In this document: positions 3,795 through 18,679 of the stretch, piece after piece | How the letters are laid out: each line of letters opens with the position of its first letter | Numbering within the stretch: the first letter of the stretch is position 1 | IMG/VR virus record: IMGVR_UViG_3300050821_001155 | Location: 1 to 37,277 of that record | Reading direction: 5' to 3' (one strand) | Origin: a virus | Length of the DNA: 37,277 nucleotides | Notes under the pieces: generated by a model | Database searches by the model: none | What the model was told of the DNA's origin: nothing | The model's input: only the letters and a program-made list of their open reading frames with translations | Program-made: the position numbers and the translations under genes

Positions 3795-5377
3795 GGTATC
3801 TCCCGACTCACGCTCCATACATCCACCAGATGGAAGCGTTGAAGCGCCTATCCAACCAGCGCGCGTTTGCACTCCTCATGGCGATGCGGACTGGGAAGAC
3901 GAAAGTGGTGCTAGACGATTATGGTAGATTGGAAGCGGATGGCAAGTGTGGCTCCGCTTTGATCATCGCTCCAGCTGGAGCCTATCGAACATGGGAGACG
4001 GAAATCATCGAGCATGTGGGACCATCCTTGCTCCGTCGTCTCCTAACATACACATGGTCCGCCTCCGCCAAGTCTCAGGCTGCTCAAAAGATACAGGACA
4101 TCTTCATGGCGAATGTCGTGCGTCCACGGATCATGATGATGAACGTGGAAGCGTTGAGCGAGGTTAAGCGTGCCAGAGAACTAGCTGTAAACTTTCTAAG
4201 CCAGACGCGAGACGCAATGTGCGTGGTAGATGAGAGCACTTCGATCCGTGGCGCTGATTCGTTGCGGACGAAATTTATCATAGACAAACTTCGTCCGCTC
4301 GCCACCTATCGGCGGATCATGTCAGGCCTTCCCTCCCCCAACTCGCCCTTCGATCTGTGGGCGCAGTTCTATTTCCTCGATCCAAAAATCCTCGGGCATC
4401 TAACATTCAAGACCTTCCAGCATCACTACGCTGAGATACAACAAGTGTGTATGATCCCTGCGCGAGTGCTGAGAGAGAAGCTTCACAAGATGGTAGGAGC
4501 AAAGCCTTTCAACGTCCCTGGCATGGGCCTCGTCAACGCCCACGACCTACCGCACGCGATGTTGATAGAGGAGATAGCGCGGCGTGGCGGCTATGTCCCG
4601 CGCGTCCCGGTGATCAAGGCGTATCGAAACGAGGAGGAGCTAGCAGGACTGATTGCGCCGCACTCCTACCGGGTGAAGCTATCGGATTGCTACGATCTAC
4701 CACCCAAGATTTATTCCAAGCGTGAAGTCGCGCTTACTGAAGAACAAAAGCGCATCTACAGCGAGATCAAGCAATATGCGTTCGTGGAACTCAACGAGTT
4801 GGAACATGTTACCGCTAATCATGTTCTAACTCGAATTGTTAGATTACACCAGGTCCTTTGCGGTCATGTACGGGACGATAGCGGGACCATCCAAGACCTT
4901 CCCGAGAATAGAACCAAGCAGCTGTTAGAACTCCTCAACGAGCACACCGGAAAAAGTATCATATGGTGCTCATACGATCACGACATCACGCGGCTAACGA
5001 CCGCGCTGACGAAAGAGTTTGGGGAGGGGAGCGTGGCGAGGTTTTGGGGCGGCAATCGTCCTACCAGAGAGAACGAGGAGCGCCGCTTCCGCGAAGACCC
5101 GACTTGTATGTACATGCTCGCCACGCCGGGAGCGGGACGCTTTTCCCGTATGTGGGCGGTAGCCGATCTGGTCGTGTATTATTCTAACACACCGGACCTA
5201 GAGCACCGATCCCAGAGCGAGGAGCGAGCGCAGGGGTTGGATAAGATCAATTCCGTTCTCTATGTTGACCTTGTCGTCCCTGGTACAGTGGACGAAAAGA
5301 TCATAACAGCGCTCCGCGCCAAGATCAATATGGCGGCAGTCATAACGGGAGATTCATGGCAGGAGTGGGTTGTATGA
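3791..5377 (+). CDS. SNF2/DEAD-type superfamily 2 helicase
   Basis: This 528-residue protein has the two-lobe SF2 helicase layout. Lobe 1 begins with a Q-like element (PYIHQMEALKRL) and Walker A MAMRTGKTK (about residues 31-39). Motif Ia follows (SALIIAPAGAYRTWETEI), then motif II VVDEST (DEST variant, about 145-150) and motif III (RRIMSGLPSPNSPFDLWAQF). Lobe 2 has ALTEEQKRIYSEIKQ, the SIIWCSYDHDITRL strand, LATPGAGRFSRMWAVADLVV and the arginine-rich motif VI region (DLEHRSQSEERAQGLDKINS). This resembles phage SNF2-family ATPases used in replication or repair. The start is ATG 3791, overlapping the previous stop; an upstream TTG is not needed. It is the only clear DNA-metabolism enzyme in the window. 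Confidence 0.9.
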   Translation: MRYLPTHAPYIHQMEALKRLSNQRAFALLMAMRTGKTKVVLDDYGRLEADGKCGSALIIAPAGAYRTWETEIIEHVGPSLLRRLLTYTWSASAKSQAAQKIQDIFMANVVRPRIMMMNVEALSEVKRARELAVNFLSQTRDAMCVVDESTSIRGADSLRTKFIIDKLRPLATYRRIMSGLPSPNSPFDLWAQFYFLDPKILGHLTFKTFQHHYAEIQQVCMIPARVLREKLHKMVGAKPFNVPGMGLVNAHDLPHAMLIEEIARRGGYVPRVPVIKAYRNEEELAGLIAPHSYRVKLSDCYDLPPKIYSKREVALTEEQKRIYSEIKQYAFVELNELEHVTANHVLTRIVRLHQVLCGHVRDDSGTIQDLPENRTKQLLELLNEHTGKSIIWCSYDHDITRLTTALTKEFGEGSVARFWGGNRPTRENEERRFREDPTCMYMLATPGAGRFSRMWAVADLVVYYSNTPDLEHRSQSEERAQGLDKINSVLYVDLVVPGTVDEKIITALRAKINMAAVITGDSWQEWVV

Positions 5378-5910
5378 AGAAGGCTACACGTGAAAAAATT
5401 CGGGCTAGTCTTATGGGGCATCCTGTTTCCAAAGCCACCCGCTTAAAAATGAGCCTCGCTGGGAAGGGTAAAAAGCACGGACCCCTATCAGATACTGCTA
5501 AAGGAAAAATCAGCAAGGCCAATCTCGGGAGGAAACGAACCAAGGCTGCTAGAGCAAAAATGCGAGCGGCAGCTTTCAAAAGGATTGGATCAAATGGAAA
5601 ACCGCGTACCCCTGCTCAATTAAAACTATACAGCTTGTTAGGAAAGACATGGACATTAGAACTACCAATCAAAATTGGAAATGGATTAGATGGGTATCCA
5701 ACAAATTATAAAGTTGATATTGGTAACCGATCAAAAATGATAGCAATAGAATGCGATGGTGTAACTCATAGAGCCACCAAACAAAAGGTCCAGGATATTA
5801 AAAAAGATCAAAAATTAAAAACAATCGGCTGGAAAATAATTCGACTATCAGATGAGTTTGTTCTTTCGACTAGCAAGGCGGAACTAAACCGAATTATCAG
5901 GAATGGTTAA
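5374..5910 (+). CDS. NUMOD3 + DUF559/VSR-like homing endonuclease
   Basis: This 178-residue product has two parts. The N-terminal half holds three NUMOD3-type DNA-binding repeats of the form TREKIRASLMGHPVS, TRLKMSLAGKGKKHG and AKGKISKANLGRKRT, each a short helix with basic residues. The C-terminal half resembles the PD-(D/E)XK fold of DUF559/very-short-patch-repair nucleases: KVDIGNRSKMIAIECDG (putative catalytic D and ExD), then a helix and WKIIRLSDEFVL. The whole looks like a mobile endonuclease. The region 5600-5890 is A/T-rich with many AAAA tracts, unlike its neighbours. Start ATG 5374 overlaps the helicase stop (ATGA) and follows AGGAG at 5361. Confidence 0.8.
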   Translation: MKKATREKIRASLMGHPVSKATRLKMSLAGKGKKHGPLSDTAKGKISKANLGRKRTKAARAKMRAAAFKRIGSNGKPRTPAQLKLYSLLGKTWTLELPIKIGNGLDGYPTNYKVDIGNRSKMIAIECDGVTHRATKQKVQDIKKDQKLKTIGWKIIRLSDEFVLSTSKAELNRIIRNG

Positions 5911-10582: not shown

Positions 10583-10774
10583 ATGATCAGCGACAGATCA
10601 TTCAACCTACTAGTCGGTTGGCTTACCATTACAGCTATCATCCTGCTCGCGGTGTTACTTACCGCGTGTAGCGCAGACTACCTGCGGGAGCGTCCCGACA
10701 TCGCGACCGATCTGCACAAATACTGTTTGAACTATCCGAAGGACTCTGCCTGTCAGGGCAAGGATAGTAAATGA
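10583..10774 (+). CDS. Small lipoprotein
   Basis: A 63-residue protein with a hydrophobic N-terminal segment ending in a lipobox: LVGWLTITAIILLAVLLTAC, with Cys29 as the predicted lipidated residue. The mature part is only about 34 residues, with two further Cys (YCLNYPKDSACQG). Size and layout resemble phage outer spanins or superinfection-exclusion lipoproteins, but it lies in the early strand beside the PEP-CTERM genes rather than in the lysis cassette. It may act in the envelope of the infected cell. Confidence 0.65.
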   Translation: MISDRSFNLLVGWLTITAIILLAVLLTACSADYLRERPDIATDLHKYCLNYPKDSACQGKDSK

Positions 10775-10850: not shown

Positions 10851-11579
10851 ATGAAGTCTCTACTCCTACTGCCTGTTGTGGGACTGTTGGCATTGTTCGC
10901 CAATGGCGCTCGCGCAGATACTATCATCGATGACCCGCTGCACGGCTTCTGTGCAGCTGGGTGCGTTGATAACGGCACCAACACTCCTATCACCAGCAAT
11001 CCGCCGGTGAACTGGGGGTTCACGGTATCGCCCAAGGACCAAACTGGTGACCTGATTCTGGACATCCTCGTTCCGAATACAGCGCCAGTCAATCCGGCGA
11101 ACACCGTCACTGTTACTGGGTCTACTGTGCCTGGTGGCAGCTTGAACTTCTCGTTGGTGTCTACCACCGCGTGGACTAGCGGCTTCCTCGATACCTACCT
11201 TGGTATCAGTGCGTCGCCGTCAAACCCCATCGGTGCGTACCTGCCGAGCACGCAAGTGTTCCTACCAGGCGCCACTGGGTTCTTTGTGCTCCAAGCGGAC
11301 CTTGGAACACAGGCTCTCAACGGCCCAAGCGGACCCTTCTCGCCTACGTTCAGCTTGAACCGTGGCGCGCAGGGCATGTACATCGTAGGCTTCTTGAACA
11401 CCGTAGATGGCATCATTGCTACAGCCAACTCCGGTGCGTTGTTCGAGACTGGTAGCGGCAATACCATCAATCCGGTGGCTGCCGTTCCGGAGCCTGCAAC
11501 CTGGGGCATGATGCTGTTAGGTTTCATCGGCCTCGGCTTTGCCTTCCGCCATCGTCGGCGGATGGTACACTACGCCTAA
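10851..11579 (+). CDS. Exported PEPxWA-CTERM sorting-domain protein
   Basis: This 242-residue protein has an N-terminal Sec signal peptide (MKSLLLLPVVGLLALFANGA, cleavage near ARA|DT). The mature region is Thr/Asn/Gly/Pro-rich, beta-strand-like, with Cys pair C-x3-C near its start. The C-terminus VPEPATWGMMLLGFIGLGFA is followed by an Arg cluster (RHRRR): PEP motif, hydrophobic helix, basic tail. This is the PEPxWA-CTERM sorting signal, normally recognised by an exosortase that transfers the protein to the cell surface or polysaccharide matrix. No exosortase is in the window, so the host's would be used. ATG 10851 follows AAAGGAG; the in-frame upstream start would add non-signal residues. Confidence 0.9.
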   Translation: MKSLLLLPVVGLLALFANGARADTIIDDPLHGFCAAGCVDNGTNTPITSNPPVNWGFTVSPKDQTGDLILDILVPNTAPVNPANTVTVTGSTVPGGSLNFSLVSTTAWTSGFLDTYLGISASPSNPIGAYLPSTQVFLPGATGFFVLQADLGTQALNGPSGPFSPTFSLNRGAQGMYIVGFLNTVDGIIATANSGALFETGSGNTINPVAAVPEPATWGMMLLGFIGLGFAFRHRRRMVHYA

Positions 11580-11624
11580 CTAACGTAGTGTGAGATGGGG
11601 TACGTCTCAGCAGGGGCTGACAAC

Positions 11625-11648
11625 GGGGAGCGGTCACAACCGCTCCCC
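11625..11648 (+). terminator. GC-rich hairpin after first PEP-CTERM gene
   Basis: A perfect 10-bp stem, GGGGAGCGGT with ACCGCTCCCC and loop CACA, is followed by ACTTCTACATCTTC rather than a T run. It is near-identical in sequence to the terminator after the second PEP-CTERM gene (12404), which suggests duplication of a gene-plus-terminator unit or a shared origin. It probably terminates weakly or protects the 3' end. Confidence 0.55.
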
Positions 11649-11687
11649 ACTTCTACATCTTCAACTCTAATGGGAGCTTTCCCAATC

Positions 11688-12380
11688 ATGATGAAGTTGA
11701 AAACTGTACTGCTCTCCAGTGCTCTTGCTCTTTGTGCGAGCGGAGCACTGGCACAATCTACCATCAGTCTGAACGTGGACCTTAATGGATCGTCAGTCTC
11801 TTCCATTGGTCCAGTTACTGGTGGTGGTGCTGCTACCTCCGGTACATCTGGAGGTATCGCGTTCACCGTTCAAGCGTTCGGCGTGCCCACGGTCCCTAGC
11901 CCGGACTTTGGTACAATCACGTTTGACGTCAACGGCAACGCGACCGGCTCCAATACCCTGACCATCCTCGCTGGACAACAACACCTGACAAACTTTCCGT
12001 CAGGTGCGTTTGAAAGCGTGTTCGCTGGTGACTTCGGGATTGGTGGAGCGAACATTCAATCCATCGTGATGTCCACGTGGGTTGATCCGGGCGACGGTTT
12101 GTTTGCTCAAACCAACTTGCTCGGTTCGCAAGTCTGCCTCGGCGCAAATCTTAACTGCGCGCCGCAGTCGGACTTTGCCACTGTGTTAGGTCTCGGCACG
12201 TTCTCTGAGACAGAGAAGTTCGTTGTGACCTTCACTGGTCCTGCGGCCTTCCAGGGCAACGTGCAAATCTTGGCCTCGGCAGTGCCTGAGCCGGCAACGT
12301 GGGGCATGATGCTCCTCGGCTTCCTTGGCCTCGGTGCGGCGTTCCGCATGAAGCGGCGCACTGCGGTTCTCGCTTCCTAA
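11688..12380 (+). CDS. Exported PEPxWA-CTERM sorting-domain protein
   Basis: This 230-residue protein has signal peptide MMKLKTVLLSSALALCASGA, cleavage near ALA|QS. The mature part is rich in Gly/Thr/Asn with a beta-strand pattern and one Cys pair (QVCLGANLNCAP). It ends VPEPATWGMMLLGFLGLGAA plus FRMKRR, almost the same sorting signal as the gene before it. The bodies of the two proteins are not obviously similar, so they are two different cargoes sharing a tail. ATG 11688 (or 11691) is chosen because the signal peptide begins there; the ribosome site GGGAG at 11672 is distant (12 bases). Confidence 0.88.
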   Translation: MMKLKTVLLSSALALCASGALAQSTISLNVDLNGSSVSSIGPVTGGGAATSGTSGGIAFTVQAFGVPTVPSPDFGTITFDVNGNATGSNTLTILAGQQHLTNFPSGAFESVFAGDFGIGGANIQSIVMSTWVDPGDGLFAQTNLLGSQVCLGANLNCAPQSDFATVLGLGTFSETEKFVVTFTGPAAFQGNVQILASAVPEPATWGMMLLGFLGLGAAFRMKRRTAVLAS

Positions 12381-12403: not shown

Positions 12404-12432
12404 GGGGAGCCGGTCACGACCGGCTCCTTTTT
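12404..12432 (+). terminator. Rho-independent terminator
   Basis: GGAGCCGGT (12406-12414), loop CACG, ACCGGCTCC (12419-12427), then TTTTT (12428-12432). This is a textbook intrinsic terminator 25 bases after the stop of the second PEP-CTERM gene. It isolates that gene from the next and fits a self-contained moron. Confidence 0.88.
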
Positions 12433-13177: not shown

Positions 13178-13389
13178 GCGATTATTATCAGGCATACATC
13201 GCGCGATTGGAGCGACAGCTAGAGCTATCCTCCCAGGCATGGAAGGCTTGGGAGGATACGCTAAGAGAAAAGGACCACGAGATTGCGCAACTAAAGGCAG
13301 AGCGCGATGCCTACAAGCGTAACAACCAAATGGTTGCTCACGTTATTCAGGACATGAAGCGACAGCTGGACGAGGCGCTCAAGAAATGA
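13174..13389 (+). CDS. Small coiled-coil protein
   Basis: A 71-residue, almost fully helical protein with heptad repeats: YYQAYIARLERQLELSSQAW and EIAQLKAERDAYKRNNQMVA. The start is GTG 13174, overlapping the previous stop (GTGA) with GGGGCAA upstream. It may oligomerise or partner with the LuxR-type protein encoded next, whose ATG overlaps its stop. No recognised family. Confidence 0.6.
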   Translation: MSDYYQAYIARLERQLELSSQAWKAWEDTLREKDHEIAQLKAERDAYKRNNQMVAHVIQDMKRQLDEALKK

Positions 13390-13580
13390 AAAGCACATTA
13401 AGTCCGCGACAAGACCAAGTCGCGCGATTATTGATCCACGGTCTTTCTGATAAACAAATCGCAAGCATGCTGAACTTCAGTCTCACTGCAGAAAAATCTC
13501 AGGTTCAAGAAATCTTCAATAAGCTTGGCGTTCGTAATAGATCAGCTGTTGCGGTTATCATGATGAGGAAACAACCATGA
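13386..13580 (+). CDS. Stand-alone LuxR-type HTH protein
   Basis: A 64-residue protein consisting almost entirely of a GerE/LuxR helix-turn-helix. LSPRQDQVARLLIHGLSDKQ opens the domain, IASMLNFSLTAEKSQVQEIF holds the turn and recognition helix, and NKLGVRNRSAVAVIMM ends it with the typical 'KLgvrnRteAv' motif. There is no sensor or receiver domain, so any control comes through a partner or DNA alone. Probably a phage transcription regulator. ATGA overlaps at both ends. Confidence 0.85.
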   Translation: MKSTLSPRQDQVARLLIHGLSDKQIASMLNFSLTAEKSQVQEIFNKLGVRNRSAVAVIMMRKQP

Positions 13581-17175: not shown

Positions 17176-17850
17176 TCAGGTCTTCGATGGCGTTGGCACG
17201 CCGGGATGCTCACCAGACGGCGCGATCACAGTGATCCAACCGCTCGATGGCGTCCAGGCAGTTACCACATCCCAATTCTCTAACACTTCTGGCTTCTCCT
17301 CAGAGCCAGGAGGTGGTAATACAATCGGGTGCGTGGGTATCCCAGGCACTCCCGCACTCGGCGGAATGTAGATGGGATGCTCAGGCTTCGCTCCAGGAAT
17401 AGTTCCTGGTGGTAGATAGATCGGAGGCGTTGGCGTCGGCTGTGGGCCTGGACCACCGATGTCAGGATACGGAGGAGCGCCGCCCCAAATTCCTGGAGGC
17501 CTGCCACCTGGAGCAATCGGATGCGACGGATGCGGTTGATGTCCAGGCAATCCCTGATCGGGATAGAGCGGAGGCCCACCCCAAATTCCTGGAGGCCTGC
17601 CACCTGGAGCAATCGGATGAGCCGGGTGCCCTGGAGACGGCCAGATGCCTGGAGGAGCACCAGGAAGTCCCTGATCAGGATACGGAGGCGCGACCCCACC
17701 CCAGTATCCCGGAGGCGGACCACCTGGAGCAATCGGGTGAGCCGGATAACCTGGACCCGGCCAAATACCCGGAGGCGGACCACCTGGAGCAATCGGGTGC
17801 GACGGCTCACCACTCGATACTGGAACAATCATAGCAAGGAAAGGCTGCAT
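17176..17850 (-). CDS. Pro/Gly-rich repeat protein, tail-associated
   Basis: A 224-residue protein dominated by four copies of a Pro/Gly unit starting HPIAPGGPPPGIW (or HPIAPGGRPPGIW), each followed by a variable Pro-rich spacer such as GGPPLYPDQGLPG. Then a Pro-rich arm (PPIYLPPGTIPGAKPEHPIY) leads to a folded end (VLENWDVVTAWTPSSGWITV). Proteins with this HPIAPGG pattern occur near tail-fibre genes in tailed phages of soil Proteobacteria. An extended spacer or glue protein of the particle surface is plausible. ATG 17850 follows AGGAG; the in-frame extension to 18036 overlaps the LamG gene and is rejected. Confidence 0.7.
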   Translation of the reverse strand: MQPFLAMIVPVSSGEPSHPIAPGGPPPGIWPGPGYPAHPIAPGGPPPGYWGGVAPPYPDQGLPGAPPGIWPSPGHPAHPIAPGGRPPGIWGGPPLYPDQGLPGHQPHPSHPIAPGGRPPGIWGGAPPYPDIGGPGPQPTPTPPIYLPPGTIPGAKPEHPIYIPPSAGVPGIPTHPIVLPPPGSEEKPEVLENWDVVTAWTPSSGWITVIAPSGEHPGVPTPSKT

Positions 17851-17896
17851 GTTAACTCCTTTATTTTGAGAGATGGTAGATGTAGTGCAGGGTAGT

Positions 17897-18679
17897 TCAG
17901 TTATTACAGAACGCCAGAACTGGCGGTGTGAAGTTCGCGGTGTAGCGCGCGACGTTGGAGATGCGCGCCTCGTCAATAAAACTACCTGATGGCTGAACGT
18001 AGGTCGCGCTATAGGAACGACCAATCTTCGACCCAACGCTCGCGGACCCTACCACATTAGAGTTAGTTCCACCGCCACCAGACGCTTGATTACCATCTGT
18101 GTAGAATTGAATAGCATTTGATTGACGAACCACAGCATAGTGATGCCAGACATTAGGCGTGAACACAGTCGCTGCGGTAGGAGTAGCAGTGATCCCAGCG
18201 CCAGCTATTTGTATGGTTAGGTTAGGTTGAGCGTATGGACCTAACCAAGTCGTTTGATCGTCTCCGATCCAACCCATATATGTCGGCGCTGTTGTTGGAA
18301 AATATAGCCAAGCCTCAACTGTGAAGTCGGTGCTCGCTGGGATCAATACACCAGCGGCCGCTGGAAGTTGAGCGTAGGACGTTCCGCCTGTAACAATACT
18401 AAGCGAGTAGGTTCCAAACTTCGCTTGCGTTGTCGAGTAGACCGCGCCTCCGTTGAGCGTGAGTGTCTTAGCTCCGCTGCTACCGTTATCCGCTCCGGTA
18501 TTATCAAAGTGCCAGAGCCCAACGACGTTCGCGAAGGTCCCACCACCGCCAGTGTTAGACGTACACGCGGGAGCGCCAGTGCTCCGAATACCCGGAGGCA
18601 ACGAGGTACCAGGAAGCTGCGCGAGCGAATAAGAGCCTAACGCGAGACCCGCCGCGACGAGTGCTCCAGCAAAATTCAT
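17897..18679 (-). CDS. LamG-domain protein with signal peptide
   Basis: A 260-residue protein. The N-terminus MNFAGALVAAGLALGSYSLA is a predicted Sec signal peptide. The main part is a LamG-like jelly-roll: VVGLWHFDNTGADNGSSGAK, KFGTYSLSIVTGGTSYAQLP, FTVEAWLYFPTTAPTYMGWI, VWHHYAVVRQSNAIQFYTDG and SFIDEARISNVARYTANFTP, the usual strand order of phage and bacterial glycan-binding domains. It could bind host polysaccharide as a receptor-binding or exported accessory protein. The start overlaps the previous stop (ATGA). A signal peptide on a tail-region protein is unusual. Confidence 0.8.
   Translation of the reverse strand: MNFAGALVAAGLALGSYSLAQLPGTSLPPGIRSTGAPACTSNTGGGGTFANVVGLWHFDNTGADNGSSGAKTLTLNGGAVYSTTQAKFGTYSLSIVTGGTSYAQLPAAAGVLIPASTDFTVEAWLYFPTTAPTYMGWIGDDQTTWLGPYAQPNLTIQIAGAGITATPTAATVFTPNVWHHYAVVRQSNAIQFYTDGNQASGGGGTNSNVVGSASVGSKIGRSYSATYVQPSGSFIDEARISNVARYTANFTPPVLAFCNN

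Follow-up and report, generated by a model that had tools for sequence, protein, structure and literature searches.

A tandem pair of phage genes with exosortase-type sorting tags, and related phage proteins whose tags look matched to the host

What would a phage do with two consecutive genes for exported proteins that end in a bacterial sorting tag? The question is raised by a viral contig of 37,277 nucleotides (IMG/VR record IMGVR_UViG_3300050821_001155), here called the window. The initial annotation had described two such genes side by side, each with a signal peptide, a body rich in Gly, Thr and Asn that holds a single Cys pair, and a nearly identical end. Both open reading frames are indeed present, and the described architecture is seen in both products, P1 and P2. 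The features of the locus are as follows.

10851..11579, + strand: P1, exported PEP-CTERM protein of body family A (DDPLHGFC...), 242 aa; ATG at 10851, stop at 11579; PF07589 29.2 bits
10851..10916, + strand: Sec signal peptide of P1, MKSLLLLPVVGLLALFANGARA, read by eye; cleavage ARA-D
11484..11576, + strand: sorting tag of P1, VPEPATWGMMLLGF, with transmembrane stretch and HRRR; from tag-model scores and record-wide search
11625..11648, + strand: inverted repeat between P1 and P2 (GGGGAGCGGT CACA ACCGCTCCCC), without a T run; sequence reading
11688..12380, + strand: P2, exported PEP-CTERM protein of body family B, 230 aa; ATG at 11688, stop at 12380; from tag-model scores
11688..11753, + strand: Sec signal peptide of P2, MMKLKTVLLSSALALCASGALA, read by eye; cleavage ALA-Q
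12282..12377, + strand: sorting tag of P2, VPEPATWGMMLLGF, with transmembrane stretch and MKRR; from tag-model scores and record-wide search
12404..12429, + strand: stem-loop after P2 resembling an intrinsic terminator; 11 pairs, then a T run

Both signal peptides are clear on visual reading, the Cys pairs lie in FCAAGC (P1) and CLGANLNC (P2), and the two ends consist of VPEPATWGMMLLGF-[IL]-GLG followed by a basic cluster. As regards the features of a moron, a terminator-like site follows P2, and neither a convincing sigma-70 promoter nor a sigma-54 promoter like that of Aquincola pepA was found near the genes. Structure models reached a pLDDT of 57 for P1 and 40 for P2; neither body has a recognised fold, and the P1 model gave no significant match in the PDB.

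The tails of P1 and P2 score above the cut-offs of three tag models, namely PF07589 (29.2 and 27.9 bits; cut-off 20.7), TIGR02595 (22.3 and 21.8 bits; cut-off 16) and, just barely, the PEPxxWA model NF035944 (35.4 and 35.1 bits; cut-off 35), so that they do not fail on PEP-CTERM models, a doubt that the initial annotation had itself raised. A control with PF07589 was positive in none of 14 known genomes, and a search of the whole record for the tag returned exactly two places, the tails of P1 and P2. The label PEPxWA, given initially, is right in so far as the PEP-CTERM and PEPxxWA cut-offs are passed, but the sequence reads PEPATWG, with G and not A after the W. Neither protein belongs to the family of the floc protein PepA, as the scores with NF033554 (15.7 and 21.5 bits) lie under its cut-off of 80. 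Within the window's phage group, V-P-E-P-x-T-W is kept in the tails across four differing bodies, and the tails vary past the first 14 residues. Since this core is kept on bodies that differ, the tail of P1 and P2 is not a chance resemblance, and the view that both are real exosortase-type tags is supported by sequence comparison.

A signal peptide combined with a C-terminal helix and a basic cluster would also yield a periplasmic protein held in the inner membrane, active for instance in lysis or in blocking injection, with the helix as anchor and no sortase tag. In one related phage (G009) the endolysin gene lies about 5 kb upstream of the pair, an arrangement that would suit such a protein. 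We regard this as improbable, given that hydrophobicity suffices for an anchor, yet the V-P-E-P-x-T-W core is kept, that the tails score on models of exosortase tags, and that three recognisable tag classes are swapped and concordant within pairs, as described below. Moreover, no lipobox was seen by eye in P1 or P2, and hence they are not unimolecular spanins.

The carrier of the pair is a contig of an SfV/ST64B-like myophage, with homologous sheath and baseplate: the sheath protein is about 40% identical to that of ST64B over 98% of its length, and the baseplate genes were assigned to PHROGs. To the left of the pair lie genes for a DUF932 protein, an SNF2-type helicase and an endonuclease-like protein; to the right lie the endolysin, LamG and collagen-like fibre genes, the baseplate and the tape measure, with a head protein last. 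P1 and P2 point rightwards on the + strand, and the late genes, endolysin included, are on the minus strand. Since phage genes flank the pair on both sides, it is phage DNA, in agreement with the initial annotation.

Such bacteria often have PEP-CTERM genes, and four bacterial genomes contain distant relatives of body A, which would be expected if the pair were a recent chance acquisition from a host, or host DNA bordering a misassembled or prophage contig, with no role for the phage. This is very improbable indeed. The flanking genes refute it for the window, the pair recurs in diverged phages under strong purifying selection, and bodies A and B were absent from samples of 398 Pseudomonadota genomes and 385 genomes of the alphaproteobacterial class, a search whose positive controls, the L141 and L142 genomes, apply to body A and are themselves within the A alignment. 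Contamination with host DNA and misassembly, the concern set out at the start, are ruled out by the phage genes on both sides together with the pair's presence in diverged phages. Body C was likewise absent from a sample of 327 genomes belonging to the same order as a Rhizobiales MAG.

Several other genes of the window deserve mention. A small lipoprotein-like gene (10583-10774) lies just upstream of P1 and has a relative (59%) at the equivalent position in G001; a 64-aa LuxR-type (GerE) DNA-binding protein is encoded downstream of the pair (13386-13580), and its relative also follows the pair in G001. The nuclease-like gene at 5356-5910 (NUMOD3 and DUF559/MTES_1575) overlaps the end of the SNF2 helicase gene and resembles a homing endonuclease. 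On the minus strand, 17176-18036 is an ORF of proline/glycine-rich repeats (HPIAPGGxPPGxW), of possibly doubtful reading frame; its part 17176-17975 gave dN/dS above 2 against G001, probably a wrong frame in a repeat, and was set aside.

When viral contigs were searched for proteins like P1 and P2, three relatives emerged, G001, G002 and G003, plus a set joined by the tail. P1 is 93%, 73% and 41% identical to its counterparts in these three, and P2 is 91% identical to that of G001 and about 32-36% to other phage B proteins. The bodies of the tagged phage proteins fall into four families, A to D, of which A has only four phage members. The combinations are A with B in the window, G001 and G003; D with B in G004 and G009; C with B in G006 and G007/G008; a partner with C in G010; and C alone in G005. 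Tandem tagged genes are thus present in eight of the nine related phage loci (window, G001, G003, G004, G006, G007, G009 and G010; not G005), which bears out the initial view of a phage-encoded pair. Elsewhere, such tandems were found at 8 of 70 bacterial and none of 45 other viral PEP loci, by a pattern that misses degenerate tags (e.g. that of L045). Four related myophages (G001, G004, G007 and G009) have counterparts of the window's structural (including tail) and lysis genes, for the most part with about 30-70% identity, and terminase and head genes are present in G001 and G009. The genes adjoining the pair are mostly not conserved among the related loci, which argues that the pair itself is the unit. 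G006 also encodes a third short PEP-CTERM protein of 111 aa, apart from its tandem pair (L127:16697-17032, minus strand). No relatives of P1 or P2 were found in cultured phages or plasmids; a tblastn search with the short tail gave no matches, a weak negative given the low-complexity filter of BLAST.

Comparison of the window with G001 gave dN 0.03 and dS 1.1 for the body of P1, and dN 0.06 and dS 1.1 for P2. The resulting dN/dS of about 0.05 indicates that the pair is strongly constrained, and at the sequence level it is under strong purifying selection. The signal peptides and the region past the tag core are strongly divergent in both proteins; in P1, the signal peptide has about 38-47% amino acid identity to that of G001, against mostly 93-100% across the body. 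Synonymous differences (pS) amount to 0.58 for P1 and P2 and to 0.71-0.88 for the other shared genes, one repeat-rich ORF excepted, which places an exchange of the pair between phages later than the divergence of the core.

How many phages carry such proteins was a question left by the initial annotation, and for one partner family, C, a search with the body alone gave at least 80 viral loci. A PHROG scan of the large ORFs that flank 12 of them, taken together, yielded terminase, endolysin, RecT, helicase and integrase families; no family C protein was found in cultured phages. Each of the 60 distinct C proteins has a tail like a sorting tag, of three classes assigned by patterns written after the tails had been seen: 38 GAGxPG, 11 VPLPA-like and 11 PEPxxW, the last including four degenerate forms. 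For two of these classes the known reader is an exosortase. With the VPLPA-CTERM model TIGR03370 (cut-off 25.35), L239 passes at 29.1 bits and L238 (22.6) and L247 (16.7) fall below; the C protein of L250 passes the PEPxxWA model. The GAGxPG tail, P-[GLA]-P-xx-GAG[LI]PG with a hydrophobic helix and a basic cluster, ends 38 distinct phage proteins in L234-L313 (e.g. L241:4938-5552 and L281:4941-5600). The examples tested had no match among the NCBIfam sorting models, and the tail may be a sorting signal as yet undescribed.

A tree of family C bodies, built with the tails removed, requires no fewer than 11 changes of tag class, and a single origin is rejected both for PEPxxW (AU p 5e-9) and for VPLPA (AU p 2e-7). 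In tandem pairs, both members carry the same tag class in 20 of 20 cases, a value reached by none of 50,000 shuffles, although the count includes related phages, which are not independent, and copying of the tail between neighbouring genes would likewise give agreement within pairs. Body A also occurs with other tails: G002 has the P1 body, at 73%, with VPLPIAGAGLPGLVAALCGLVALRQRRRR. Tag swaps on conserved bodies with agreement within pairs are most simply read as a need for the tag to suit some feature of the host; judged from sequence, the tags look matched to the host's sortase.

There are further examples. At L045, L046, L048, L049 and L060, C-body proteins with a PELSTW tag are encoded near a second tagged protein, and these same-class pairs come on top of the 20 counted; in L045 and L049 both proteins end in GFMAYR[RK]. 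At L002:10001-10723, a P1 body carries the tail VPLPIAGAGLPGLVAALCGLVALRQRRRRSVA, identical to that of a C-body protein in L302.

No exosortase gene was found in the window, as had been noted initially, or among the 20 viral records examined. The proposal that the phage uses the exosortase of its host is in line with real tags and class-matched swapping, which argue for such use. The host itself is probably a proteobacterium using PEPxxWA tags, as suggested by the tag; a search of alphaproteobacterial genomes for a prophage with this baseplate gave matches only 34-44% identical and named no host.

To our knowledge, few exosortase substrates have a demonstrated job. Our preferred explanation, which we consider rather probable, is that the phage supplies P1 and P2 as substrates to the host exosortase, with swapped tags that fit the current host, and that they change the coat of the cell and hinder adsorption of other phages. 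The host exosortase would process both proteins, which would then join the cell surface or the exopolysaccharide matrix. The sequences lend good support to the picture of exported, tagged proteins that the host is predicted to sort to its matrix or surface; surface placement, blocked receptors, a changed coat and phage exclusion, as put forward in the initial annotation, are possible outcomes. Phages would retain functional bodies while swapping C-terminal tags to suit the sortase of the present host, so that the same body would be met with PEPxxW, VPLPA or GAGxPG and tandem partners would share one class. The purpose would most likely be an altered coat on the lysogen or infected cell, for instance through retention of polysaccharide in the manner of the Aquincola protein PepA, and other phages would adsorb less as a result.

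The four distant bacterial relatives of body A all have PEP tails. The one at L141 follows an exosortase XrtA (score 199, just below the model cut-off of 208; the general exosortase model is passed) and an XrtA polysaccharide deacetylase; the chain-length determinant and TIGR03016 belong to the same locus. At L230 the relative is in a run of three PEP genes about 6 kb from PrsR and PrsK, and at L231 it adjoins PrsT, PrsR and PrsK; the relative at L142 has no exosortase or Prs neighbours within the stretch read. This link of the P1 body, like the scale of at least 80 loci and the tag swapping, goes beyond the initial annotation. In Aquincola, PepA is encoded beside prsT, retains polysaccharide on the cell and rescues flocculation, and its overexpression lowers soluble and raises cell-bound polysaccharide (PMC9850573). 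Because P1 and P2 fall below the floc PepA cut-off, a polysaccharide role is drawn from locus neighbours and analogy; holding of polysaccharide and hindered adsorption would fit the P1 locus link, with aggregation of the lysogen as the main alternative.

In that alternative, the exosortase-sorted proteins would serve matrix building or aggregation for the lysogen, favouring its persistence in soil or water, and not phage exclusion. The exosortase/polysaccharide and PrsK/PrsR/PrsT loci of the P1 relatives and the flocs caused by PepA agree with it. However, PepA leaves the surface biofilm of Aquincola unaffected (PMC9850573), and most phage records show no integrase, so that a long-term gain for the lysogen may not apply; we consider it possible, though on the unlikely side. 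The lysogeny mentioned in the initial annotation has a proxy in G009, where the pair has the endolysin on one side and, about 3 kb downstream, an integrase. This is one of 12 phage records; the other 11, the window included, show no integrase, though many are fragments, and a lysogenic role may not be general.

Whether host-matched tagging of conserved surface proteins is a widespread phage strategy, with GAG[LI]PG (P-x-P-xx-GAG[LI]PG, helix and basic cluster) as a signal undescribed in bacteria, we judge to be evenly balanced. Phage bodies under strong selection with interchangeable tags amount to a natural tag-swap experiment, which predicts matches between tags and sortases, points to an unclassified tag (GAGxPG) and suggests that phage takeover extends to envelope sorting. 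For uncultured phages, the tag class could further serve as an aid in host prediction.

Among the papers listed by full-text searches on PEP-CTERM or exosortases together with phages, none, judged by title and abstract, describes phage-encoded exosortase substrates, and phages seem, from the sequences compared here, to borrow the surface-sorting machinery of the host, of which we found no earlier report. Superinfection-exclusion and lysogenic-conversion proteins such as P22 SieA and gtrABC (PMC10883804) are likewise phage-borne and expected to act at the host envelope; no described example with an exosortase tag was found among them. PEP-CTERM and PEPxxWA-CTERM proteins, sorted by exosortases such as XrtA (Haft et al. 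2006, PMC1569441), share the signal peptide, which in P1 and P2 was read by eye, a body without known domains, and the PEP motif with helix and basic cluster. In contrast, P1 and P2 are phage-encoded, in tandem, without exosortase or polysaccharide genes, have W-G for W-A, and have bodies nearly absent from the sampled bacterial genomes. The RpoN-dependent PepA of Aquincola tertiaricarbonis, beside prsT (PMC9850573), is also a tagged exported protein, and the bacterial relatives of P1 are also at XrtA/Prs loci, but P1 and P2 score far under the NF033554 cut-off and no sigma-54 promoter was found near the phage genes. Finally, some phage C-body proteins (L239) pass the tag model of the VPLPA-CTERM proteins of exosortase XrtD (TIGR03370/TIGR04152), whereas in other phages the same C body carries PEPxxW or GAGxPG.
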